A stretch of 24,337 bases of DNA from IMG/VR virus record IMGVR_UViG_3300025073_000637, positions 1 through 24,337 of that record, one strand, 5' to 3'. This DNA comes from a virus. The stretch's first letter is position 1. Each line of letters begins with the position of its first letter. The position numbers were made by a program, and so were the translations under genes. Below are positions 6,102 to 20,251 of the stretch, in pieces. Under the pieces are notes generated by a model. That model was not told where the DNA came from. It made no database searches and was given only the letters and a program-made list of their open reading frames with translations.

Positions 6102-6663
6102 CGCGCCCTCCGTTCAGGGCTTCTCCTGCTCGATCGAGGAGCACGAACCCCTCCGCGGGGCCCAGCGTGCGGCGGAGGTCGCCCGGCACCGCGCCGGCCG
6201 CGACCGAGGCGTCGCCCCGCCACTCGAACCCGCACGGCCGCCAGCCAGCCGCCAGGAAGGCGCGCAGGGACCGCGCGCTCTCCCGCCGGACCTCCGCGAG
6301 CCAGGCGCGGCGCGGGACCCGCAAGGTCGCGGCCTCGATCACCCGCCGCGCAAGGCCGCGGCCCCGGGCCTCGGGCGCGAGCGCGAGCGAGAGCTCCGAG
6401 ACCCCGGACTCGCGGTCGTCGACGCGCACGTACCCGACCGGCACCCACCGGGCCCACCACCCGGTGTCCGGGGCCTCGAGCTCCTCGGCCACGTACAGGG
6501 CGCGGCGCGGGTCCGCCAGGGCGCCCGCCAGCCACAGGGCGTGGAGGTCCGGGTCCGGGGCGGCGCGGGTCCGGCTCGCCCGGACGGTCTCGGGGTCGCT
6601 CCGGACCCGGAGCAGGAACTCAGCATCCCGCTCCTCGGCGGGCCGGAGCCGCAGGCCGCTCAC
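6094..6663 (-). CDS. GNAT-family N-acetyltransferase
   Basis: A 189-residue protein with the GNAT fold. It begins with LRLRPAEERDAEFLLRVRSD, typical of the RimJ/PseH-like branch. Acetyl-CoA-binding motif A is APEARGRGLARRVI (96-109; RxxGxA at R100, G103, A105), and motif B is RSLRAFLAAGW. These enzymes move an acetyl group from acetyl-CoA to an amine. PseH in the pseudaminic acid pathway is a GNAT that acetylates the 4-amino group of the UDP-sugar, and this gene could fill that step for the sugar cassette at 11877-17872. It lies 5 kb from the cassette, so the link is inference; acetylating a protein or toxin is an alternative. The GTG at 6663 gives a GTGA overlap. Confidence 0.85.
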   Translation of the reverse strand: MSGLRLRPAEERDAEFLLRVRSDPETVRASRTRAAPDPDLHALWLAGALADPRRALYVAEELEAPDTGWWARWVPVGYVRVDDRESGVSELSLALAPEARGRGLARRVIEAATLRVPRRAWLAEVRRESARSLRAFLAAGWRPCGFEWRGDASVAAGAVPGDLRRTLGPAEGFVLLDRAGEALNGGRGE

Positions 6664-6986
6664 CTCGCCCGCCAGTCGAGATCGTACGCCCCGCACCTGC
6701 ACGCGGGGGCCGCACGGTCCGTCACGCAGTACCATACCCCTCCCGCGGAGAGGACGGGGTGCGTGAAGCTGCGGCCCTCGACCACGAAGCTCCGCCGCGC
6801 GCCAGAGCCCTCGGGCCGGTGCCCGAGCCGCGCGCGTACGCCACGCCAGCACTCCTCGACCTGGGCGGCGGGCATCAGGCACCCCGCCAGGGCGCGGAAC
6901 CCCTCCCGGTCGCCGGCGCGCGCAAGGCCCACCAGCTCGGCCGAGGCGTTGTCGCCCTGCGGGTACGCGGCCCCCACCGCGCTCAT
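6660..6986 (-). CDS. hypothetical protein
   Basis: A 108-residue protein starting at the ATG (6986), which overlaps the stop of the holin-like gene as ATGA. The N-terminal half is helical (SAELVGLARAGDREGFRAL, then AAQVEECWRGVRARL). The C-terminal half looks beta-rich, with a cysteine cluster (WYCVTDRAAPACRCG) that may bind metal. No family was recognised. It sits between the lysis-type genes and the GNAT. Confidence 0.65.
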   Translation of the reverse strand: MSAVGAAYPQGDNASAELVGLARAGDREGFRALAGCLMPAAQVEECWRGVRARLGHRPEGSGARRSFVVEGRSFTHPVLSAGGVWYCVTDRAAPACRCGAYDLDWRAR

Positions 6987-7820: not shown

Positions 7821-8036
7821 TTACACGTCCTCCTTTTCACAGCACCCGTCGCACCCGTGCGTAGACCACGTCCCGGGCGCGTGACCCAGGCGCCGGTCCA
7901 TCGCCTCGGCGGACTCCGGGACCGGATGCCCGACGCCGTGCCGGCACCGCACCTCGAGCAGCCCGGTATCCCGACGCTGGGTCATCGGGCGGCCGTGCAG
8001 CGGGTGGCCGGGAGAGTTGAATAACCATCCCATCAT
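7821..8036 (-). CDS. small zinc-binding protein
   Basis: A 71-residue protein with one cysteine-histidine site early (VRCRHGVGHP) and a second at the C-terminus (WSTHGCDGCC), a pattern fitting a single zinc. The ATG at 8036 overlaps the pentapeptide-gene stop as ATGA; another ATG lies six bases upstream. The next gene, the transglycosylase, starts at the base after its stop. Function unknown. Confidence 0.6.
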   Translation of the reverse strand: MMGWLFNSPGHPLHGRPMTQRRDTGLLEVRCRHGVGHPVPESAEAMDRRLGHAPGTWSTHGCDGCCEKEDV

Positions 8037-8677
8037 TCCCATCCCTGCAACCGCGCGATCACCTGCCACGCCTCCGTGGCGAGGTAGTACAGACCGCGGC
8101 GATTCTCGCGATTCGCGTAGTGCGCCTTCGCCTCGTTGAGCGTGAACGTGTGGCACCCCGCCAGGATGCGGTAGCCCTGATCGGTATGCCAGAGCGTCGT
8201 CACCCAGCCATCGATCAGGCCAAGGTGCGCGATAGCGAGCACCTTGGCGCTCCCGAGGTCGGCGCCCCCGAGGTTGGCGCCCCGGAGGTCGGCGCCCCGG
8301 AGGTCGGCGCCCCGGAGGTGGGCGCCCCCGAGGTCGGCGTCCCGGAGGTCGGCGCCCCGGAGGTGGGCGCCCCCGAGGTCGGCGTCCCGGAGGTCGGCGC
8401 CCCGGAGGTCGGCGCCCCGGAGGTCGGCGCCCCGGAGGTGGGCGCCCCGGAGGTTGGCGCCCCGGAGGTCGGCGTCCCGGAGGTCGGCGCCCCGGAGGTC
8501 GGCGCCCCCGAGGTCGGCGCCCCGGAGGTCGGCGCCCCGGAGGTCGGCGTCCCGGAGGTAGGCGCCCCCGAGATCCGCACGCTGCTTGACTGCAATCTCT
8601 AGCGCGAGACGCCAGGACGCCGCCTCGACAGCGCAGAGCACAGCACCGGAGAAGCGATGCGAGATCGAAATCTTCAT
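8033..8677 (-). CDS. pentapeptide-repeat protein
   Basis: A 214-residue protein. Residues 34-143 are 22 uninterrupted A(D/N/H)LxG pentapeptides, which fold as a right-handed quadrilateral beta helix. The C-terminal part (about 144-214) has WHTDQGYRILAGCHTFTLNEAKAHY, a tail I associate with phage pentapeptide proteins. Some pentapeptide proteins (Qnr, MfpA) mimic DNA and protect gyrase; others have no known role. The last half suggests an added ligand or docking domain. The ATG at 8677 gives a TGATG overlap. The 15-base units are almost identical in DNA, which suggests recent expansion. Other open frames across the array are artefacts of the 15-base period. Confidence 0.9.
   Translation of the reverse strand: MKISISHRFSGAVLCAVEAASWRLALEIAVKQRADLGGAYLRDADLRGADLRGADLGGADLRGADLRDADLRGANLRGAHLRGADLRGADLRGADLRDADLGGAHLRGADLRDADLGGAHLRGADLRGADLRGANLGGADLGSAKVLAIAHLGLIDGWVTTLWHTDQGYRILAGCHTFTLNEAKAHYANRENRRGLYYLATEAWQVIARLQGWE
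8249..8578 (-). repeat. tandem 15-base repeat array (22 units)
   Basis: This is the coding array of the pentapeptide protein. Units vary mainly at two or three positions that switch D/N/H/Y at position 2 and RG/GG/RD at positions 4-5. A 45-base higher-order pattern (ADLRD-ADLGG-AHLRG) appears twice. Near-identity of synonymous sites indicates slippage or unequal recombination. Confidence 0.9.
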
Positions 8678-11244: not shown

Positions 11245-11869
11245 CGTCCGCGATCTCGGCGGGCCTCTCTGCCTCGGCCGCCACGACGCGGTGCGGAGAC
11301 GCCGGCAGGATGACGAGCGGCCCGCCGCCCGGGCCCGAGACCTCGGCCCGAACTGGCGCCAGCCACCCCCGGATCTTGGCCAAGAGGCCGAGTGCCGCGA
11401 TCTTGTCCCACGCCTTCACCTCGACGTGCTCGATGACCCGCCTTGAGGATTTCCCACCACCGACGATAGTCTGGGTGACCTTCATGCCGGCGACAATCGC
11501 CTGCGTGGCGGGGTCCAGTTCGTCGACCCGCCCCTCGGCCACCGCCCGCACGACCTCGTCGATCTGCTGGGCCGTGAGGGTCCCGATGCGGCTCAACTCC
11601 CGGGCCGCGCGTTCGATGCCGCACTCCGTATCGCAGGAGTGCCGCTCGATCAATTCCTGAGTCTTGGGGTCCTTCAGCATGTAGTGGCCATGGACGGACG
11701 CGCTCGCTCGCGTCGTCGCGAGGCCTGCTCGCAGCGCCGACTGCGTGGCGTTCCCCGCCACCCCCGGGCCCCCGCCCACGTACTGTTCCACGAACCGCAA
11801 GCGCATCAAGCGCCGCCGACGCGCGCCATTCGGCCCCGGAACTCCCGGCTTCTTCCCCCGCTTACCCAT
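11228..11869 (-). CDS. terS: terminase small subunit (TerS)
   Basis: A 213-residue protein that starts with a basic tail (MGKRGKK and RRRRLMRLRF). Its helix-turn-helix region (about 24-75) has the Terminase_2-like pattern RFVEQYV...NATQSALRAGL...MLKDPKTQELIERH. A central helical part is followed by a C-terminal region that probably contacts TerL. TerS recognises the packaging site on phage DNA and recruits TerL; adjacency to HNH and TerL supports this. The ATG at 11869 lies six bases after a TATAAT box and has no clear Shine-Dalgarno, so leaderless expression is likely. Confidence 0.87.
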   Translation of the reverse strand: MGKRGKKPGVPGPNGARRRRLMRLRFVEQYVGGGPGVAGNATQSALRAGLATTRASASVHGHYMLKDPKTQELIERHSCDTECGIERAARELSRIGTLTAQQIDEVVRAVAEGRVDELDPATQAIVAGMKVTQTIVGGGKSSRRVIEHVEVKAWDKIAALGLLAKIRGWLAPVRAEVSGPGGGPLVILPASPHRVVAAEAERPAEIADGEAEP

Positions 11870-11875
11870 CAGTGC

Positions 11876-11885
11876 ATTATAGCCC
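11876..11885 (-). promoter_or_regulatory. probable promoter -10 element for the terminase operon (leaderless start)
   Basis: Minus-strand GGGC-TATAAT (TATAAT at 11881-11876) is followed by GCACTG and the TerS ATG, the same six-base spacing as at the portal. The TAA stop of the upstream cytidylyltransferase gene lies inside this box. No clear -35. Confidence 0.6.
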
Positions 11886-12815
11886 GGTGGAGCGGTAACC
11901 CTGCATCACCGCGTCCTCGAGCCCGAGGCGCCACGCCGCCGCGAGGGCTGGGTCCGAGTACGGGCAAGGCGCCGCGACTGCGCTCCAGACGCCCGCCACG
12001 AAGGCGGTGCGCGCCGCCGCAAGGGCGCCCGCCCCAGCGCCATAGACCTCCAGAGCCCGCGCCTCAGCGATACCCGGATACGCCTCGCGATACGCCGCCA
12101 GGACGTCGCGCCACGTCGGGCGCTCGACGCCCCGGAGGCGAGCGTACACCCGCCGCACGCGCTCAAGGTCCCGCGGCTCGTCGACGCTCAGCTTGACGGC
12201 AGAGTGGTCCTCGCCATTCGGGCACGAGACGTTCGAGCGCGCCACGCCCGTGACGCGGGGGTCGCACCACATCCAGGTCGTGACGTGCTCGCGCTGGTCC
12301 GGCCCCGCGTGGCGCGCCGCGGCCCGCAGGAGCCCGACCGTGAAGGCTTCCGCGTCGCATCCATCGTAAAAGGTCGGCGGATGGACGTTCGAGGCGTAGG
12401 CGTCACGGACCTCGAAGGCCTCACGCGCGCGGTGGCACTCCAGCGCCACCAGGCCCGCCACCTCGGGGTCGAGGAGCGGGCAGTCGCTCGTCAGCCGCAG
12501 GACGACGTCGTCGTCCGCGAGCCCAAGCGCGTCGGCGGCCGCCAGGTACCCGGCCAGCACGTCCCGGCGCCCCGGGCGCCCTGAGAGGTCCGCCTGGCCG
12601 CGCGTCCACGGGACCCCCATCCGGTAGCACACGCTCAGCACCGCGTCGTCAGCCGGGTCGGGAGTCGTGGTGACCGCCACGGCGTCGACGCCCGGCACCC
12701 GACGAGCGAGCGTCAGGACGTGCGCCAGGATCGTGCGCTGCCCCACGCGCTCCAGGATCTTGCCCGGCAGGCGGCTCGACCCAACCCGCGCCTGGACGAC
12801 GGCCGCGGCCCTCAC
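11877..12815 (-). CDS. SpsF/NeuA-like cytidylyltransferase
   Basis: A 312-residue sugar nucleotidyltransferase of the SpsF type. The nucleotide-binding signature QARVGSSRLPGK (8-19) is followed by DVLAGY (85-90), RLTSDCPLLDP (107-117), REHVTTW and KLSVDEPRDL. Relatives activate 3-deoxy-nonulosonic or similar sugar acids with CTP to give the CMP-sugar donor. SpsF proteins are usually near 240-250 residues; the additional C-terminal segment (from about 225) is of unknown function. It follows the NeuB-like and acyltransferase genes with GTGA coupling, which fits the last activating step. The start may be the GTG at 12815 or the one at 12818. The stop lies within the TerS -10 box. Confidence 0.9.
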   Translation of the reverse strand: MRAAAVVQARVGSSRLPGKILERVGQRTILAHVLTLARRVPGVDAVAVTTTPDPADDAVLSVCYRMGVPWTRGQADLSGRPGRRDVLAGYLAAADALGLADDDVVLRLTSDCPLLDPEVAGLVALECHRAREAFEVRDAYASNVHPPTFYDGCDAEAFTVGLLRAAARHAGPDQREHVTTWMWCDPRVTGVARSNVSCPNGEDHSAVKLSVDEPRDLERVRRVYARLRGVERPTWRDVLAAYREAYPGIAEARALEVYGAGAGALAAARTAFVAGVWSAVAAPCPYSDPALAAAWRLGLEDAVMQGYRSTGL

Positions 12816-13741
12816 CACCGCACCCCGAACATCGGGACCTCGACATCCCGGCCCCCGAACCCCGACTTGAAGAACTCGATCGCCCGCTCCTTGTCAGTCG
12901 CGGCGGTCCCGCGCCACCCGAGGCTCGCGGCCCGCACCCCGCGGGCGCCGAGCGCGAGGAGCGAGCGCCACACGACAGCGTGCGAGACGTCCCGCGCCGC
13001 GTAGGCGCCGCTCCCGTAGTAGGCGCCGCCCTTGTAGACGAACCAGTACGCCGCCCCCCACGTGACGTCCCCCGTCTCGGCGAGCGCCACGGCCGCGAGT
13101 CCCGCCTCGAGCCAGTGGCGCTGGAGCCGGTACGTCTCGTCCGGGCGCCCCCCGTAGAGGCGCCGGTGGAGGGACTGGTACCGCACGAACGCGACCTCGG
13201 CCCCGGAGCCGGTCCCGGAGTGGAACGAGATCGCGTACTCGCGGCCGGCTCGGTGGATCAGGGAGCGGTACGAACTCCGGACCTCCGACCACCTGAGGTC
13301 GCAGAGGTCCACGACCCGGTGCGCCACGCCAGACGGCCGGAAGAGCTCCCCCCAGTACGGGGACACCGGCGGGCGGCCGAACGGGTGCCCCGCCATCCGC
13401 GCGCCCCGCGCGCCGGCGGCTGCCGCACGGCGCTCGACCTCCGCTTCGACGAGGTCGGCCGCCTCCTGGTCGTCGGCGAGCGGCACGGGCAGGGGGCCGC
13501 CGACGTACGAGCACTCACCCGGCGTCCGGTCCGGGAGCAGAAGCGGGGCGACAGCCGCGACGCGGTGCGCGTCGTCGACGACCGCGAACGAGAGGTCCCG
13601 GCATGGCGCGTAGGCGCGCTGGTACGCCAGCCACCCCGTCGTGTGCCAGAACCACCCCGCAGGGTGCTGGAGCACGTACTCGTCCCACGCCCCCGCCAGC
13701 CACGGCGCCAGGGGCGCGGCCCGCAGGGCCGGGTCCGTCAC
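12812..13741 (-). CDS. FemAB/GNAT-like acyl- or aminoacyltransferase
   Basis: A 309-residue protein resembling the FemAB-like members of the GNAT superfamily. It has an early FWHTTGWLAYQ (31-41), a central YRSLIHRAGREY, a YYGSGAYAARD strand-loop and an ending KERAIEFFKSGFGG. Such proteins add amino acids to lipid II or acyl groups to sugars and occur in many surface-polysaccharide clusters. Its place between NeuB and SpsF suggests that it decorates an amino group of the sugar, before or after CMP activation. That substrate is inferred; wall-bridge modification is an alternative. The GTG at 13741 overlaps the NeuB stop as GTGA; the longer reading is rejected. Confidence 0.75.
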   Translation of the reverse strand: MTDPALRAAPLAPWLAGAWDEYVLQHPAGWFWHTTGWLAYQRAYAPCRDLSFAVVDDAHRVAAVAPLLLPDRTPGECSYVGGPLPVPLADDQEAADLVEAEVERRAAAAGARGARMAGHPFGRPPVSPYWGELFRPSGVAHRVVDLCDLRWSEVRSSYRSLIHRAGREYAISFHSGTGSGAEVAFVRYQSLHRRLYGGRPDETYRLQRHWLEAGLAAVALAETGDVTWGAAYWFVYKGGAYYGSGAYAARDVSHAVVWRSLLALGARGVRAASLGWRGTAATDKERAIEFFKSGFGGRDVEVPMFGVRW

Positions 13742-14574
13742 GCTACGCCGGTCCGGTACCGGAGCATCGGCTCCTCCGCGGGTGAGAGCAGCCACCCGGA
13801 CTCGCCCTCCGGCCCGAGCATCGACTCCGCGGTCCGGATGTTCCGCACGTACTCCAGCGCCGCGAGGGGATCGCGCGCCACCTCGCGGTCGGGGTCCGTC
13901 TCGTCGGTCTCCCAAGACCGGAGGTGGAACTCCACGATCCGGGCCCCGACCGCGACCGCGAGCGCGCCGGTCCAGGGGTGCCGCGTGTGGTCCGAGAGGC
14001 CGGCGTACTGGAAGGGAATCATCGTAGTAAAGTCGTGGCGCAGCCGCGCGAGGCGGATCTCACCCTCCGGACACGGGTACGCGCTCACGCAGTGCAAGAC
14101 GCTGACGTCCGGCGTCTCGGGCATGTATACCCGAAAGTAATGTTGGAGTACGCCAAAAAGCCCGGCCGAGACGGCCCCCATCCCGGCGCTCACGAGTAAG
14201 GGCTTCCGGTACTCGGCGTGCAAGAGCACGAAGTGCCGGTCCAGCGCCTCGAAGCTCGAGACCTTGAACCGGCTGACGTGCTGGGCCACGACATGCACGT
14301 CCTCCGGCAGGTAGGCCGTGCACATGAACTCGACGCCCTCGACCTCAGCGCGCTCCTTCAAGGCGGAGAACCACCCGCGGGGGAACGCGAGCCGCCGGTA
14401 CTGCTCCCGGTACTCGGGCGCGCGGCGGCGCTCGACCAGACGCTCGGGGTCCGAGAGCCATTGGAATTTCACGGCGTCGGCCCCGACCTCGCGCGCAAGG
14501 CCCACGAGCTTGAGCGCTGCGTAGAGAGAGCCGCCGTGCGTGGCGGCCACCTCCGCGATGACGAACGTCCTCAC
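13738..14574 (-). CDS. NeuB/PseI-like nonulosonic acid synthase
   Basis: A 278-residue TIM-barrel enzyme that joins phosphoenolpyruvate to a six-carbon amino sugar to make a nine-carbon sialic-like acid. Family motifs are intact: IAEVAATHGG (6-15), DAVKFQ (33-38), SRFKVSS (101-107), VSAGM (128-132), LHCVSAYPCPE (160-170), GLSDHT (192-197), VEFHL (214-218) and DPDRE. Family members usually have about 340-350 residues with a C-terminal SAF (antifreeze-like) domain; that domain is missing here, as the protein stops soon after the barrel. The GTG at 14574 is coupled (GTGA) to the small gene upstream. With the dehydratase, aminotransferase and SpsF it forms a nonulosonate pathway. Choice between Pse, Leg and Neu product is not settled. 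Confidence 0.93.
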   Translation of the reverse strand: MRTFVIAEVAATHGGSLYAALKLVGLAREVGADAVKFQWLSDPERLVERRRAPEYREQYRRLAFPRGWFSALKERAEVEGVEFMCTAYLPEDVHVVAQHVSRFKVSSFEALDRHFVLLHAEYRKPLLVSAGMGAVSAGLFGVLQHYFRVYMPETPDVSVLHCVSAYPCPEGEIRLARLRHDFTTMIPFQYAGLSDHTRHPWTGALAVAVGARIVEFHLRSWETDETDPDREVARDPLAALEYVRNIRTAESMLGPEGESGWLLSPAEEPMLRYRTGVA

Positions 14575-14780
14575 TCGCTCCTCCCCTCGACCCGCTGCGC
14601 GGCCTGATTGGCCAGAAACGCCTGCTGTAGCGCAGACACCAGCAACAGAGCCTCGGACCTCGTCAGCCCGGCCTCGACGAGCAACGCCATGTAGCGCCCC
14701 ACGACGGGCGCCAGATGCTCGAGCGCCTGCTGCGCCGCCTGGGTCTGTCTGCAGAACGCCTCCTGGTCGAACTCAGCCAT
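14571..14780 (-). CDS. small helical protein within the sugar operon
   Basis: A 69-residue, fully helical protein (FCRQTQAAQQALEHL, GRYMALLVEAGLTRSEALLLV, LQQAFLANQAAQR). The ATG at 14780 has AGGAGGGG upstream. It resembles short phage proteins of unknown function with a LTRSEAL-type motif. It sits between the aminotransferase and synthase genes, which suggests either a subunit or a phage gene that predates cassette insertion. No further assignment. Confidence 0.65.
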   Translation of the reverse strand: MAEFDQEAFCRQTQAAQQALEHLAPVVGRYMALLVEAGLTRSEALLLVSALQQAFLANQAAQRVEGRSE

Positions 14781-14798
14781 CTGCCCCTCCTGTGAGAG

Positions 14799-16112
14799 TC
14801 ATTGCGCCACCCGCCAAACTGGCTCGGGCGAGATCGGGTCGCCTTTGATCAGGGCGCGGGGGTCTGCGGCGTTCGCCACGACCTCCATCGCGGCGGCACA
14901 CGCCTCGAGTAGCGACTCCGTGTGCTCGCGCGAGTGCGCGAGCATCACATTGTTCCCGTTCGGGTGCAGAAGGTGGCCGCGCCGGCAGACTTCCTGGTAG
15001 AAGAGCGACGCCCGCAGGCGCGCTGGGTACTGGCGCGGGGCCTCGTAGGCGCCCGGCGCGTCGCTCGGCTCACTAGTCCCGACCTCGTCCCACTCGATCT
15101 TCGGGTGCGGGGCCTGGCCGACCGCCCGCGTCACGCCCGAAAGCCCGTACCGCTCGGCCAGGCGGTTGTATCCATCGATGACCGCCCGGCCCAACCGCGC
15201 CATGTGGCCGCACACGTCCTCGGCCAGGTAATGATCGATCGTCGCGCCCGCGGCCACGAGCCCCACGCAGTCGCCGTTGAATGTCCCGCTCGCGAGTCGC
15301 GCGTGCCGCATGAAGTCCCCACGCCCCACGAGCGCGGCGATCGGGTACCCGTTCCCCATCGCCTTCCCGAACGTCGCGAGGTCTGGCGTGACGCCGCTAA
15401 GCGCCTGGTACCCGCCGCGGTGCCAGCGAAACCCTGTGATCATCTCGTCGAAAATCAGGACAGCCCCGATCCGGGTCGCGCGCTCCCGCACGCCCTCCAG
15501 GAACCCGGGCTCCGGCTCCGCGATCAGCGTTGGCTCGAGGATGATCGCGGCGACGTTGTCGCCCTCCAGCTCGCCCGCGATCAACGTGTCGAGTGACGCG
15601 AGGTCGTTGTACCGGAATTCCCCGATCGCTGTTTCGTAGCACCACGGTACGCCGGGATGCTCCGGGCGCAGGGCAGCCCATTGCGAATGCCATCCGTGAT
15701 AGCCCGCACTCGCGATGAAAAACCGCTCGCTTCCGCTGCGCGGATTCCTCGTCGCGGCGCGCGCTACCCGGACCGCCGCCTCGGTGGCCTCGCTCCCAGT
15801 CTTGAGGTACCGCACCGACTCCGCGCACGGCACCAGGTCGACGAGCTGCTGCGCGACCCGCTCCTCGAGGCCCCGCGAGGGGAGCGAGAAGATCGGGCCA
15901 CACGCGACCTGCTGCCGGACGCACTCGTCCACCAGCTCGTCCCCGTACCCGAGCGAGAGAGCCCCGAGCGAGCAGATCCAGTCCGTGTACCAGGTCCCGT
16001 CCTCGGCCTGGACATGCGCCCCGGCGCCGCGGATCAAGCTCCGCGGGTAGGCGCCCGGGAACTGCGAGGGGAACTTCGAGATCGTCTGGGCGCCGCCTGG
16101 GATCAGTTCCAT
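14799..16112 (-). CDS. class III aminotransferase (HemL/GSA-aminomutase-like)
   Basis: A 437-residue PLP enzyme of fold type I. KTGSEATEAAVRVARAATRN (104-123) and YHGWH (138-142) build the active site, LIFDEMITGF (219-228) holds the PLP-nitrogen aspartate (D222), and FGKAMGNG (248-255) carries the PLP lysine K250. It resembles glutamate-1-semialdehyde aminomutase but sits among sugar genes, where HemL-like enzymes transfer amino groups to keto-sugars. It could replace PseC, a DegT-family enzyme, in turning the 4-keto sugar into the 4-amino sugar. A role in haem synthesis is unlikely. The ATG at 16112 has GGAGGAGG four bases upstream; an in-frame start at 16133 lacks this. Confidence 0.92.
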   Translation of the reverse strand: MELIPGGAQTISKFPSQFPGAYPRSLIRGAGAHVQAEDGTWYTDWICSLGALSLGYGDELVDECVRQQVACGPIFSLPSRGLEERVAQQLVDLVPCAESVRYLKTGSEATEAAVRVARAATRNPRSGSERFFIASAGYHGWHSQWAALRPEHPGVPWCYETAIGEFRYNDLASLDTLIAGELEGDNVAAIILEPTLIAEPEPGFLEGVRERATRIGAVLIFDEMITGFRWHRGGYQALSGVTPDLATFGKAMGNGYPIAALVGRGDFMRHARLASGTFNGDCVGLVAAGATIDHYLAEDVCGHMARLGRAVIDGYNRLAERYGLSGVTRAVGQAPHPKIEWDEVGTSEPSDAPGAYEAPRQYPARLRASLFYQEVCRRGHLLHPNGNNVMLAHSREHTESLLEACAAAMEVVANAADPRALIKGDPISPEPVWRVAQ

Positions 16113-16501
16113 GAGCCCTCCTCCACGCCCCACTTATCGCGCGCGGCCCAGATGTCCGACGCCACGCACTCCGCCAGCCCCACCCCGCCCGTGTCCTCGA
16201 CGGCGTGGAGGTCCCGCACGAGGTGTCGGTCCGCGCCCCCAATCGACGTCGCGCTGTTGGTGTGGTGGGGGACGCGCTGGCCGCAGAGGCCGCAGACCAC
16301 CGCGGCCGCAAGCTCCAGCGCCCGAGGAATACGCCCGTCCCGCTCCGGGACGTAGAGCTTGAGGCCGTCGCGCTGGAGCCACATGAGGATCACTCTCGGG
16401 CCGCCGCAGCCATGCTCGAGGATCTCGCCGGCCCACTCCCGGTCGTCCACGACCATGACGCCGCCCCCCAGGAGGATGGCGCGGAGCGAGACCTGGGTCA
16501 C
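16103..16501 (-). CDS. hypothetical protein of the sugar operon
   Basis: A 132-residue protein. A hydrophobic start (VSLRAILLGGGVMVVDD) resembles a beta strand and Rossmann-like loop, the middle has CGGPRVILMWLQRDGLKLYV, then CGLC and HHTNSATSIGG, and it ends in an acidic helix. The CGLCGQRVPHH segment may bind zinc. It does not match any pathway enzyme I recognise. The GTG at 16501 overlaps the upstream stop as GTGA; the ATG 14 codons later also has a plausible ribosome site. Because it is coupled to the aminotransferase it may have a missing sugar step, but that is speculation. Confidence 0.55.
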   Translation of the reverse strand: MTQVSLRAILLGGGVMVVDDREWAGEILEHGCGGPRVILMWLQRDGLKLYVPERDGRIPRALELAAAVVCGLCGQRVPHHTNSATSIGGADRHLVRDLHAVEDTGGVGLAECVASDIWAARDKWGVEEGSWN

Positions 16502-16761
16502 GAGTCCCCCTGCGGCGGCGCAGGCACACCCTCGCCCGGCACCTTCGGGCGGACGCGCGTCGGGACCACCGCGTGTGCGAGCTCCCCGACCAGCACGGCG
16601 CCCCGCTGCGCGCCGGGCGCCAAGACCCCGACGTGGATCTTGCCCAGCACGCACTTCACCTCGCCGGTCGCCCGCAGGCCCCAGAGGCCCGCCACCCACC
16701 CGGCGTCGACCTCGAGCCACGCCTGTTCCGTCTGCTTCGGGCTGTATCCCTCGACGGCCAT
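16498..16761 (-). CDS. hypothetical protein
   Basis: An 87-residue protein with a mixed strand pattern (AWLEVDAGWVAGLWGL, GEVKCVLGKIHVGVLAP) and a proline-rich basic C-terminus (VPTRVRPKVPGEGVPAPP). The ATG at 16761 has GGGGGGAG upstream. The longer reading to 17088 overlaps the SDR gene and is rejected. Function unknown; possibly a small secreted or structural protein. Confidence 0.6.
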   Translation of the reverse strand: MAVEGYSPKQTEQAWLEVDAGWVAGLWGLRATGEVKCVLGKIHVGVLAPGAQRGAVLVGELAHAVVPTRVRPKVPGEGVPAPPQGDS

Positions 16762-16766
16762 CTTTT

Positions 16767-16868
16767 TCACTCCCCCCGAAGGTAAGCGAGAAGCCGGCGC
16801 CACCACGGCAACCGGCGAAACTCCACCCTCGTCAGCGGGAGGGGGCGCAAGCACGCGGGGCACCTCAC
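16767..16868 (-). CDS. 33-residue peptide with a CxxC motif
   Basis: The GTG at 16868 overlaps the SDR stop as GTGA. The product begins VRCPAC and then has a basic, tryptophan-containing amphipathic helix (EFRRLPWWRRLLAYLRG). It could be a membrane-active or protein-binding peptide. Its size makes it uncertain, but the coupling and the following ribosome site of the next gene, contained in its last codons, support it. Confidence 0.5.
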   Translation of the reverse strand: MRCPACLRPLPLTRVEFRRLPWWRRLLAYLRGE

Positions 16869-17872
16869 GGCACCCTCCCGAGCATCTCGACCAGTTCGTC
16901 CTCCCCCAGCCACCCGACGGGGGCATCGCTCGTGTACGCCTGCCCGACGGGGTCGAGCCCGGCCGTGTCGTACACGGCGCGCCACGAGTGGTGGGTCGGG
17001 AGCACCACGACGCGCCCGCGCCCGGAGTCGAGCCACGCGCGTCCCGGCTCCTCGCGCGAGAGCAACGACTCATGGAGCTTCTCGCCACCGGGCCGCAGGC
17101 CCGTCACTACGGCCCGCTGCGGCACGCCCCTCGTCTCTCCGCGGCCCACCCACTCCCGCGTCACGGCCAGGAGCAGAACGCGGAGCCGCGCGGCCGGCAG
17201 GAGCGGGACGAAGACCTCGCCCCCCTCCATCGCGTCGAGTGCCCCCAGCACGAAGGCCGCCGCGTCCCGAAGCTCGACGATGAACCGCGTCATCCGCCAG
17301 TCCGTCACGGTCGGGGCCTCGCCCCGCGCGAGCTGCGCGCGCCAGACGTGCGGCACGGACCCGCGGGAGCCCAGCACGTTCCCGTACCGCACGCACGACA
17401 CCCGCGTCCCGCGCGGGAGCGAGTAGCTGTTGGCCTGGACGGCGTACGTCTCGGCCGCCGCCTTGCTGACCCCGTAGAGGTTGGTCGGCTCCACGGCCTT
17501 GTCGGAAGACACCACCACGACGCGCCCGACCCCCGCCACCGTCGCGGCCCGCACGACCGCCATCGTACCGAGCACGTTCGTCTTGAGGACCTCGCCCGGG
17601 CTGTAGACGCTATGCCCGACGCGCTTCAGGGCTGCGGCGTGCAGCACGACGTCGCACCCGCGGAACAGCTCCTCCATGCGCTCGGCGTCCCGGACGTCCC
17701 CGAGCTGGCACCGGAGCTGCGGGAGGCGCGCGCCCCACCGCTCGTCGAGGTCCCCGGACTTCACCTCGTCACGCGACACCGCCACGATGCGCGAGGCGCC
17801 CCCGCGCTCCTCCAGCGCCGCGAGCAGCGCGCCCCCCAGGCTCCCGGTCGCTCCGGTGATCGCGATCCTCAC
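16865..17872 (-). CDS. PseB-like UDP-GlcNAc 4,6-dehydratase (SDR)
   Basis: A 335-residue extended short-chain dehydrogenase. ITGATGSLGG (5-14) binds NAD(P). HAAALKRV, SSDKAVEPTNLYGVSK (122-137; Y133/K137 and D124/K125), VRYGNVLGSRGSV, WRMTRF, GGEVFVP and RPGGEKLHE follow in order, closing with WLGEDELVEML. This order is that of PseB/FlaA1-type inverting UDP-GlcNAc 4,6-dehydratases, which start the pseudaminic acid pathway; RPGGEKLHE carries an additional glycine relative to RPGEKLHE. The GTG at 17872 is two bases after the upstream stop. With the aminotransferase, synthase and cytidylyltransferase it forms the phage cassette. CapD-like use in polysaccharide synthesis is possible. Confidence 0.92.
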   Translation of the reverse strand: MRIAITGATGSLGGALLAALEERGGASRIVAVSRDEVKSGDLDERWGARLPQLRCQLGDVRDAERMEELFRGCDVVLHAAALKRVGHSVYSPGEVLKTNVLGTMAVVRAATVAGVGRVVVVSSDKAVEPTNLYGVSKAAAETYAVQANSYSLPRGTRVSCVRYGNVLGSRGSVPHVWRAQLARGEAPTVTDWRMTRFIVELRDAAAFVLGALDAMEGGEVFVPLLPAARLRVLLLAVTREWVGRGETRGVPQRAVVTGLRPGGEKLHESLLSREEPGRAWLDSGRGRVVVLPTHHSWRAVYDTAGLDPVGQAYTSDAPVGWLGEDELVEMLGRVP

Positions 17873-18599: not shown

Positions 18600-19157
18600 T
18601 CAGCGCTCCCTCTCCACCCTATGGCCCATCAACTCCACGAACCTCAAGAGGAAAGCCGCACGGGCAGCCTCGGGCGATATCGGAACGATGATCTCAGGGA
18701 TGGGCTCGGGCCCTCCCCACCGGAGGCGCTCCACCCGCTGGTATGACGGGAAGAGATTCCGTACCTCAGCAGCATAGACGGCACGGTCCGCCAACACGAC
18801 ATCCATCGGGAGGACGGGATATACCCCAAACTTTCGGGCGATCGCGGCGTGGATCCTCACCTCGAGTTCCCGGAGACCGGCCGCAGCGTCGGTGTGCTTG
18901 AGAGGCGCCACAAGGTCCCCGACGTACGCTTCGGCAGCGTCATGCAGGAGTCCATCCAGCGCGTGCTTCGGGTTGCACCACCGCGACACCAGGACTGAGT
19001 GCTGAGCAACCGTGTAGAGGGACTCGATATGGCCCCCGAACCGGCAGATGCGTGAGAGCGCCAAAGCGATGTCAGTTAGACTGATAGCCGAGTCCGGGAT
19101 CTCACCCCCATACGGAAACCGCCGACCCGTGTAGGTGACGATGTAGGAGTCCGTCAC
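18600..19157 (-). CDS. HD-domain phosphohydrolase (YfbR-like)
   Basis: A 185-residue metal-dependent phosphohydrolase. H53 lies in SLYTVAQHSVLV, H72-D73 in LLHDAAEAYVGD, and D124 in LADRAVYAAE, the four ligands of the HD fold. The layout resembles YfbR-type 5'-deoxynucleotidases, which cleave dNMPs to deoxynucleosides. In phages such enzymes may redirect nucleotide pools or support base replacement. The GTG at 19157 is in a GTGA overlap. It sits with the dNMP kinase and MazG-like genes in a phage with several nucleotide enzymes. Exact substrate unknown. Confidence 0.85.
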   Translation of the reverse strand: MTDSYIVTYTGRRFPYGGEIPDSAISLTDIALALSRICRFGGHIESLYTVAQHSVLVSRWCNPKHALDGLLHDAAEAYVGDLVAPLKHTDAAAGLRELEVRIHAAIARKFGVYPVLPMDVVLADRAVYAAEVRNLFPSYQRVERLRWGGPEPIPEIIVPISPEAARAAFLLRFVELMGHRVERER

Positions 19158-19714
19158 ACGACCACCGGGTGCTCGCGATCCCAGGCCGAGAGACTGGCCA
19201 CGACGTGCTGGATCTCGTGCCAGTAGGTATCCCAGCGCGAAACGCTGGGCTGACTCCGCAGGACGTGAACGACGGCCGAGTACCCGCGCGGTACGTCGTC
19301 CGAGAAGACGTCGCACGCGCCCCGCGCCTCCGCCTCGTCGTCGTCCAGGAACTCCCGCAGCGCAGAGGCCGACGAAACAAAGACCCGGACCCTGTGCCCG
19401 AGCCCGAGGTCGAGTGCCCGCGGGAGCTGGCCGGACGCCGCGCCGTGCTCCCGATCCCAGTCCGTCACATCTAGGACCGCGTGCTGGAGGCCAGCCCAGT
19501 AGGTCTCGCGCTTCTTCTGGACCGGCAGACTGCTCAGCACGTAGATCGTCCCGGCGGGCCCGGACGGCGCTCGATCCACCGAGTTGTCGAAGTGCCCGCT
19601 CAGCAGGAGGTTACTCTCCTCCGCGACTTCCTGGATCATGCGCTGCGGCGCGAGTACGACCCCCACCCTGTAGCCACCGCCGAGGTTCACGACACGGGGG
19701 AGCCTCATGCGCAC
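19154..19714 (-). CDS. tandemly duplicated zincin-like protein
   Basis: A 186-residue protein made of two 85-residue copies 92 residues apart: copy 1 at about 5-90 and copy 2 at 97-182. Shared signs are LPR(V/A)xxLGxGxRV, an (I/V)xVLxS strand and TYWxxxQHxV...WDREH. Copy 2 contains a full HExxH metal site, HEIQH (166-170), with WDREH as a possible third ligand. Copy 1 reads AGLQH (74-78), so its metal site is lost. It resembles short phage zincin-like proteins of unknown role. The GTG at 19714 lies exactly six bases after a TATAAT box; an ATG two codons later is the alternative. It leads the inferred operon. Confidence 0.75.
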   Translation of the reverse strand: MRMRLPRVVNLGGGYRVGVVLAPQRMIQEVAEESNLLLSGHFDNSVDRAPSGPAGTIYVLSSLPVQKKRETYWAGLQHAVLDVTDWDREHGAASGQLPRALDLGLGHRVRVFVSSASALREFLDDDEAEARGACDVFSDDVPRGYSAVVHVLRSQPSVSRWDTYWHEIQHVVASLSAWDREHPVVV

Positions 19715-19720
19715 GCCCAC

Positions 19721-19730
19721 ATTATAGCCC
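19721..19730 (-). promoter_or_regulatory. probable promoter -10 element for the accessory/sugar operon (leaderless start)
   Basis: Minus-strand GGGC-TATAAT (TATAAT at 19726-19721) is followed by GTGGGC and a GTG at 19714. This is the third TATAAT-N6-start in the window. A possible TTGACC lies 15 bases upstream (about 19747-19742), short for a standard spacer. The gap between genes here (19715-19762) is larger than usual. Confidence 0.6.
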
Positions 19731-19762
19731 CTCAGCCTGGTGGTCAAGCACGAGATCGGCCA

Positions 19763-20251
19763 CTACCGCAGGACCCGGACCTCGCCCGCCAGGGCCCGGA
19801 CAAGCGGCACGAGCGGGGCTTCGGGGTCGTACATGGTCTCGGGCCTCGAGCAGTCGTATTCGGCCACGAACGTCGCCTCGCCAGCATACGCGAGCGCTAG
19901 GCACACGAGCGTCTCGCCGGACCCGCACGGCACCACCAACTCCTCATCCCCGAACTCCCCCAGCACGGAACGGAACTCAGCTCCGATCGCCGACATCAGG
20001 GAGACCGGCAGATGGCCACTCGTCGCGTCGAAGTGCTCGGGCCACGCCCTCCGGATCTCGCCGACCGTCCACCACCCGCCCGCCAGGAGACGCCCGCGCG
20101 GCCCCACCTCGAGGACATCGACCCCCGCCCTCCGGAGGGCGTCAGCCGCGTTCCCGCACGAGAAGCACACCGCCCTTCGGTACCCGGCCTCCTGCATGTA
20201 ACGCCGAATGTGATGAGAGCGGACATCCTTACCGAGCGAAAGCCGGCGCAC
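19763..20251 (-). CDS. unknown protein with PLP-fold-II-like loops
   Basis: A 162-residue protein. SCGNAADAL (31-39) resembles the substrate-carboxylate loop (SxGN) of cysteine-synthase or ACC-deaminase-like PLP enzymes. VVPCGSGETL (106-115) resembles their glycine-rich phosphate loop. K8, 24 residues before the SCGN loop, could be the PLP lysine. The protein is half the usual size (300 or more), so it may be a minimal or degenerate form, or the match may be chance. The GTG at 20251 has AAGGGGGAT upstream and overlaps the methyltransferase by 23 bases. Position suggests a link to DNA or nucleotide modification, but that is weak. Confidence 0.6.
   Translation of the reverse strand: MRRLSLGKDVRSHHIRRYMQEAGYRRAVCFSCGNAADALRRAGVDVLEVGPRGRLLAGGWWTVGEIRRAWPEHFDATSGHLPVSLMSAIGAEFRSVLGEFGDEELVVPCGSGETLVCLALAYAGEATFVAEYDCSRPETMYDPEAPLVPLVRALAGEVRVLR

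Follow-up and report, generated by a model that had tools for sequence, protein, structure and literature searches.

Among the described proteins close to the phage protein considered here are the mini-Asp-zincins Acel_2062 and TTHA0227, both of which are dimers (PMC3890501). In TTHA0227, one chain has an unbroken final helix and the other shows a turn there, Asp109 lies too far from the histidine residues, and a nearby glycine is replaced by a tryptophan in orthologs (PMC3890501). A second C-terminal helix belongs to the general description of other phage zincins (PMC5512222), and in those we compared HExxH is followed by one more C-terminal helix, whose acidic residues contribute the third ligand. 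Small zincins are common in phages, and most have no known function. The gene described below encodes a protein that, on sequence and predicted structure, we read as a duplicated phage mini-zincin in which copy 2 would hold any metal site and copy 1 would be a dead partner, a reading to which we give about an even chance of being correct.

The window, that is, the whole stretch of DNA analyzed, comprises the 24,337 bases of virus record IMGVR_UViG_3300025073_000637, in which Pfam and PHROGs identify genes for a portal protein, terminase, a dNMP kinase, a DNA methyltransferase, and a deoxynucleoside monophosphate phosphatase. The gene of interest is a single open frame of the minus strand (third-position GC 0.87), correctly located by the original prediction, and is surrounded by the following features:

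19742..19747, minus strand: TTGACC, a −35-like element 15 nt before TATAAT
19721..19726, minus strand: TATAAT, separated by 6 nt from the GTG of the zincin gene
19154..19714, minus strand: putative tandem mini-zincin gene, 186 amino acids, start codon GTG (19714), stop codon TGA (19156-19154)
18600..19157, minus strand: next gene, HD-type deoxyribonucleoside 5'-monophosphate phosphatase (phrog_318, E 6e-51), whose GTG overlaps the zincin stop codon

The overlap between the zincin stop and the phosphatase start reads GTGTGA and, because the second gene begins inside the stop codon of the first, the two are probably translationally coupled. Three genes of the window (portal at 1652, terminase small subunit at 11869, and zincin at 19714) have a TATAAT upstream of the start codon with a spacing of exactly 6 nt, an arrangement that would be compatible with leaderless mRNAs. 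The zincin gene sits in a stretch of nucleotide and DNA-modification genes, with neither head nor tail genes adjacent. Immediately upstream, the gene at 19763-20251 (minus strand), which has no Pfam or PHROG match, belongs to a widespread unnamed phage family present at 28 IMG/VR loci (39–51% identity) and in one INPHARED phage record. Farther away, positions 11877-17872 of the minus strand appear to encode a nonulosonic (sialic/pseudaminic-like) acid pathway carried by a phage; these genes are listed with two other features of the window:

16865-17872, minus strand: PseB/FnlA-like dehydratase
14799-16133, minus strand: glutamate-semialdehyde-type aminotransferase
13738-14574, minus strand: NeuB/PseI-like synthase
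12812-13915, minus strand: acyltransferase-like protein, judged by eye
11877-12818, minus strand: cytidylyltransferase
8033-8677, minus strand: pentapeptide-repeat protein with A[DN]LRG units (array at 8246-8572, 15-bp period, 21.8 copies)
6598-6681, minus strand: tRNA-Arg, anticodon CCG

The pentapeptide array gives shifted self-matches between the window virus and two other loci, L030, which represents this virus itself, and L041, related to it at roughly 92–95%; the zincin gene lies outside both.

The 186-residue protein is made of two copies of 86 residues each, which align without gaps and are identical at 30 of 86 positions. Their BLOSUM62 local score reaches 149, against a best of 47 and a median of 24 among 2000 shuffled pairs, and the tandem two-copy architecture first proposed for this protein is thus borne out. 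The motifs are also found where they had been reported, HEIQH in copy 2, AGLQH in copy 1 and WDREH in both, the members of each pair being exactly 92 residues apart:

19445..19702, minus strand: copy 1 (residues 5-90), with a degenerate metal site, from the ungapped alignment to copy 2
19481..19495, minus strand: AGLQH (74-78), the degenerate HExxH position of copy 1, from sequence and copy alignment
19445..19459, minus strand: WDREH (86-90) of copy 1
19169..19426, minus strand: copy 2 (residues 97-182), with HExxH retained, from the alignment to copy 1 and predicted structure
19205..19219, minus strand: HEIQH (166-170) of copy 2, from sequence and predicted structure
19169..19183, minus strand: WDREH (178-182) of copy 2, in which Asp179 is the only family-conserved candidate third ligand

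Because an HExxH arises in 1.6% of shuffles of this protein, the motif by itself is weak evidence, and the argument depends on the duplication together with the relatives and the fold.

By searching IMG/VR with a degenerate DNA pattern for TYWHExxH, we retrieved 38 stretches, among which two on other viral contigs, L066 and L080, encode true single-copy relatives; the phage homologs that the original prediction had proposed to look for are therefore found. L080 is 46.7% identical to copy 1 and 28.9% to copy 2, L066 is 35.2% identical to copy 1 and 31.9% to copy 2, and the identity between L080 and L066 is 52.7%. Both carry HExxH-x7-WD, so that WD is conserved in all four domain copies, whereas REH is not kept in the single-copy proteins; because the retrieval pattern required HE..H, the presence of the motif in them does not independently show that it is conserved. 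The same two relatives alone were recovered by a four-row alignment search that accepted AG in place of HE, and relaxing the pattern to WHExxH plus WD revealed no additional family member. In L066, the gene follows terminase, portal, and DNA repair exonuclease genes and precedes a GP88 gene, and the L080 contig also encodes a head protein; these settings indicate that the family is viral and that its gene position is not fixed. Since single-copy relatives exist in other phages, the tandem form, though uncommon, can be understood as a variation on a type of protein that is common in phages.

At the motif, the single-copy relatives weakly match zincin profiles: phrog_1233 (best E 0.0089, obtained with L080 over residues 42-84, the window protein having no match), phrog_87 "metallo-protease" (best E 0.017), and, around HExxH and below the curated cut-off, Peptidase_M78 (PF06114; E 0.014–0.043). 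A tblastn search with L080 also led to a protein of phage MW202497 (a weak match, 30%, E 0.3) which is itself a clear phrog_1233 member with HEILH. The gene for a phrog_1233 zincin with HEILH is unannotated in MW202497 (L124, 4001-4288), where it lies between a glycosyltransferase gene and groEL. Two further results were set aside: the hhalign probability of 97% between the family profile and other phage zincins, as the TYWHE pattern had served to select most of the latter, and a phrog_87 match of a hand-made composite query (copies 1 and 2).

In a tree of the four domain copies and ten other phage zincins, the four copies form a group (support 93/92) within which copy 1 pairs with copy 2 as its sister (83/83), the longer branch being that of copy 2. 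The simplest history would be a lineage-specific duplication followed by loss of the motif from copy 1 and its retention in copy 2, the remainder of which changed faster; given the few columns of the tree, this scenario is only moderately supported.

As for the tandem protein itself, we found no second member across the searches made. It matched nothing in Pfam, PHROGs, NCBIfam, or PDB sequences, peptide patterns gave no match in IMG/VR and genome contigs, and the phage and plasmid collections returned chance-level matches only (E 2–10). Related phages, reached via the neighboring gene (28 loci) and via terminase (35 loci), contained no relative by two-copy or four-row profile, and neither the window nor the contigs of L066 and L080 matched PF06262 (Zincin_1) at E ≤ 10.

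A single-sequence model of the full-length protein was poor (pLDDT 37.7). AlphaFold2, run on copy 2 alone with an alignment of 14 sequences composed partly of proteins picked for HE..H, gave a pLDDT of 90.4 and a pTM of 0.82, and predicts two strands, a helix, two more strands, and a long helix, in this order. HEIQH (in copy 2 only, copy 1 having AGLQH) is placed inside the helix spanning residues 63-87, after the strand 53-58, with a local pLDDT of about 97. In a second look at structure matches, TTHA0227 topped the list (Z 4.8, rmsd 3.5, 76 aligned), followed by the SprT-type protease 6mdx/6mdw (Z 4.3/4.2), Acel_2062 (Z 3.0), and HtpX (Z 2.7). Foldseek scores were weak, with E > 1 for PDB (Acel_2062 first, E 1.6) and E > 0.08 for BFVD, whose best-ranked named entries include metalloprotease, SprT-like, and IrrE. 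The profile and structure matches are individually weak but, when combined, make a zincin core likely.

The metal site is less straightforward. The C-terminal helix that bears the third ligand is absent from all four domain copies, each of which ends within about ten residues of WD or enters the next copy. A frameshift hiding this helix was considered and rejected, as the domain stops at an identical point at three natural C-termini and at the internal copy junction, and the stop codon in the window overlaps the next start. The Asp of WD lies nine residues after the second histidine, a spacing at which TTHA0227 Asp108 aligns. In the model, HEIQH and WDREH share one continuous helix and no third metal ligand is placed; Asp179, being on the same unbroken helix as HEIQH, would be more than two turns from the metal and, in the predicted conformation, too distant to close the site. 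The proposal of one intact and one dead zincin thus stands in part: the predicted fold and the weak profiles agree with a zincin-type domain, and copy 1 does lack the first metal-binding histidine and the general-base glutamate, but these features of the C-terminal region lend no support to copy 2 as a complete catalytic domain. On the other hand, since the two TTHA0227 chains differ in the final helix, the helix predicted for copy 2 may not be its active conformation. For copy 2, this leaves three options: a functional mini-Asp-zincin that adopts a different conformation, a site completed by a ligand from copy 1, or a domain without enzymatic activity.

If copy 2 is dead without a third ligand, the entire protein could be a non-catalytic scaffold of zincin fold that binds another protein or a nucleic acid, a possibility that we regard as a serious if lesser one. 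The missing ligand helix and the single long helix carrying both motifs are what it would predict, and pseudopeptidases acting through binding are well documented (PMC11266112). However, copy 2 has kept H, E, and H despite being only about 29–32% identical to the single-copy relatives, and the helix that counts in favor of a scaffold may be an inactive conformation, as the TTHA0227 chains illustrate. The identity of WDREH in the two copies, despite diverged flanks and with no evident ligand inside the domain, together with the dimerization of related mini-zincins (PMC3890501), would also suit a composite site in which HEIQH of copy 2 receives its third ligand from copy 1 (Asp87, Glu89, or His90), and from a second subunit in the single-copy relatives. 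The protein would then have one catalytic site built across two fused copies; this is improbable, as L066 and L080 keep WD but not REH. Least probable, and very unlikely, is an unrelated small alpha/beta repeat protein in which HEIQH arose by chance, a reading that the shuffle frequency and the lack of any profile match for the window protein would allow, but the motif follows an edge strand, the relatives have HExxH at the equivalent place, and the zincin profile and structure matches, although weak, are consistent.

According to the duplicated mini-zincin reading, which we prefer, a mini-zincin gene would have been duplicated head to tail inside one reading frame. Copy 2 would have retained the HExxH helix and, if an enzyme, would hold the sole metal site, metal binding and peptidase activity being presumed. 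Copy 1 would have lost the metal-binding histidine and the general-base glutamate while keeping the scaffold, and would most likely serve as a permanent partner in a built-in pseudo-dimer, stabilizing copy 2 or shaping its substrate groove. The dimeric state of Acel_2062 and TTHA0227 makes such a covalent pseudo-dimer plausible. The location of the gene among nucleotide and DNA-modification genes suggests that the protein is probably intracellular; its neighbors, encoding a dNMP kinase, a DNA methyltransferase, and a 5'-dNMP phosphatase, lend no support to the role in virion maturation that had been suggested, while the other suggestion, a putative attack on host proteins, is possible. A natural protein that joins one copy with the motif to one lacking it, along with relatives devoid of the third-ligand helix, offers a compact test of whether such proteins need a third ligand, act as dimers, or are no proteases.

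Compared with known systems, the phage minimal zincins of PHROG_1233 type (MW202497 at 37.4–37.6 kb, L098, L088, and L065) have in common with this protein an N-terminal P-x(3)-[LIV]-x-[LIV]-G strand, a next strand, a conserved glycine, and an I-x-[IV] edge strand followed by a T-x-x-HExxH helix; they are single-copy proteins with an acidic C-terminal helix, whereas the window protein has two copies without that helix. The mini-Asp-zincins Acel_2062 (3E11) and TTHA0227 (2EJQ) and the family PF06262 (Zincin_1) share little sequence with it beyond HExxH. TTHA0227 resembles it in the candidate Asp nine residues past the second histidine, at the place of Asp108, in the tryptophan found for the nearby glycine in orthologs, and in the continuous final helix of 2EJQ chain A (PMC3890501). 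Unlike PF06262, in which HEXXHXXGXXD is the signature, copy 2 (HEIQHVVASLSAWD) has no glycine at this place and its Asp comes nine instead of six residues after the second histidine; unlike Acel_2062 and TTHA0227, the window protein is duplicated, has one dead copy, and is phage encoded. The likeness to ImmA/IrrE peptidases (Peptidase_M78) is weak and limited to the HExxH region of the single-copy relatives, the window copies having no match, and we saw no antitoxin or repressor partner. Finally, tandem metallopeptidases such as carboxypeptidase D also carry an inactive domain beside active ones in the same polypeptide (PMC11266112) and, their fold and biology being unrelated, are an analogy only.
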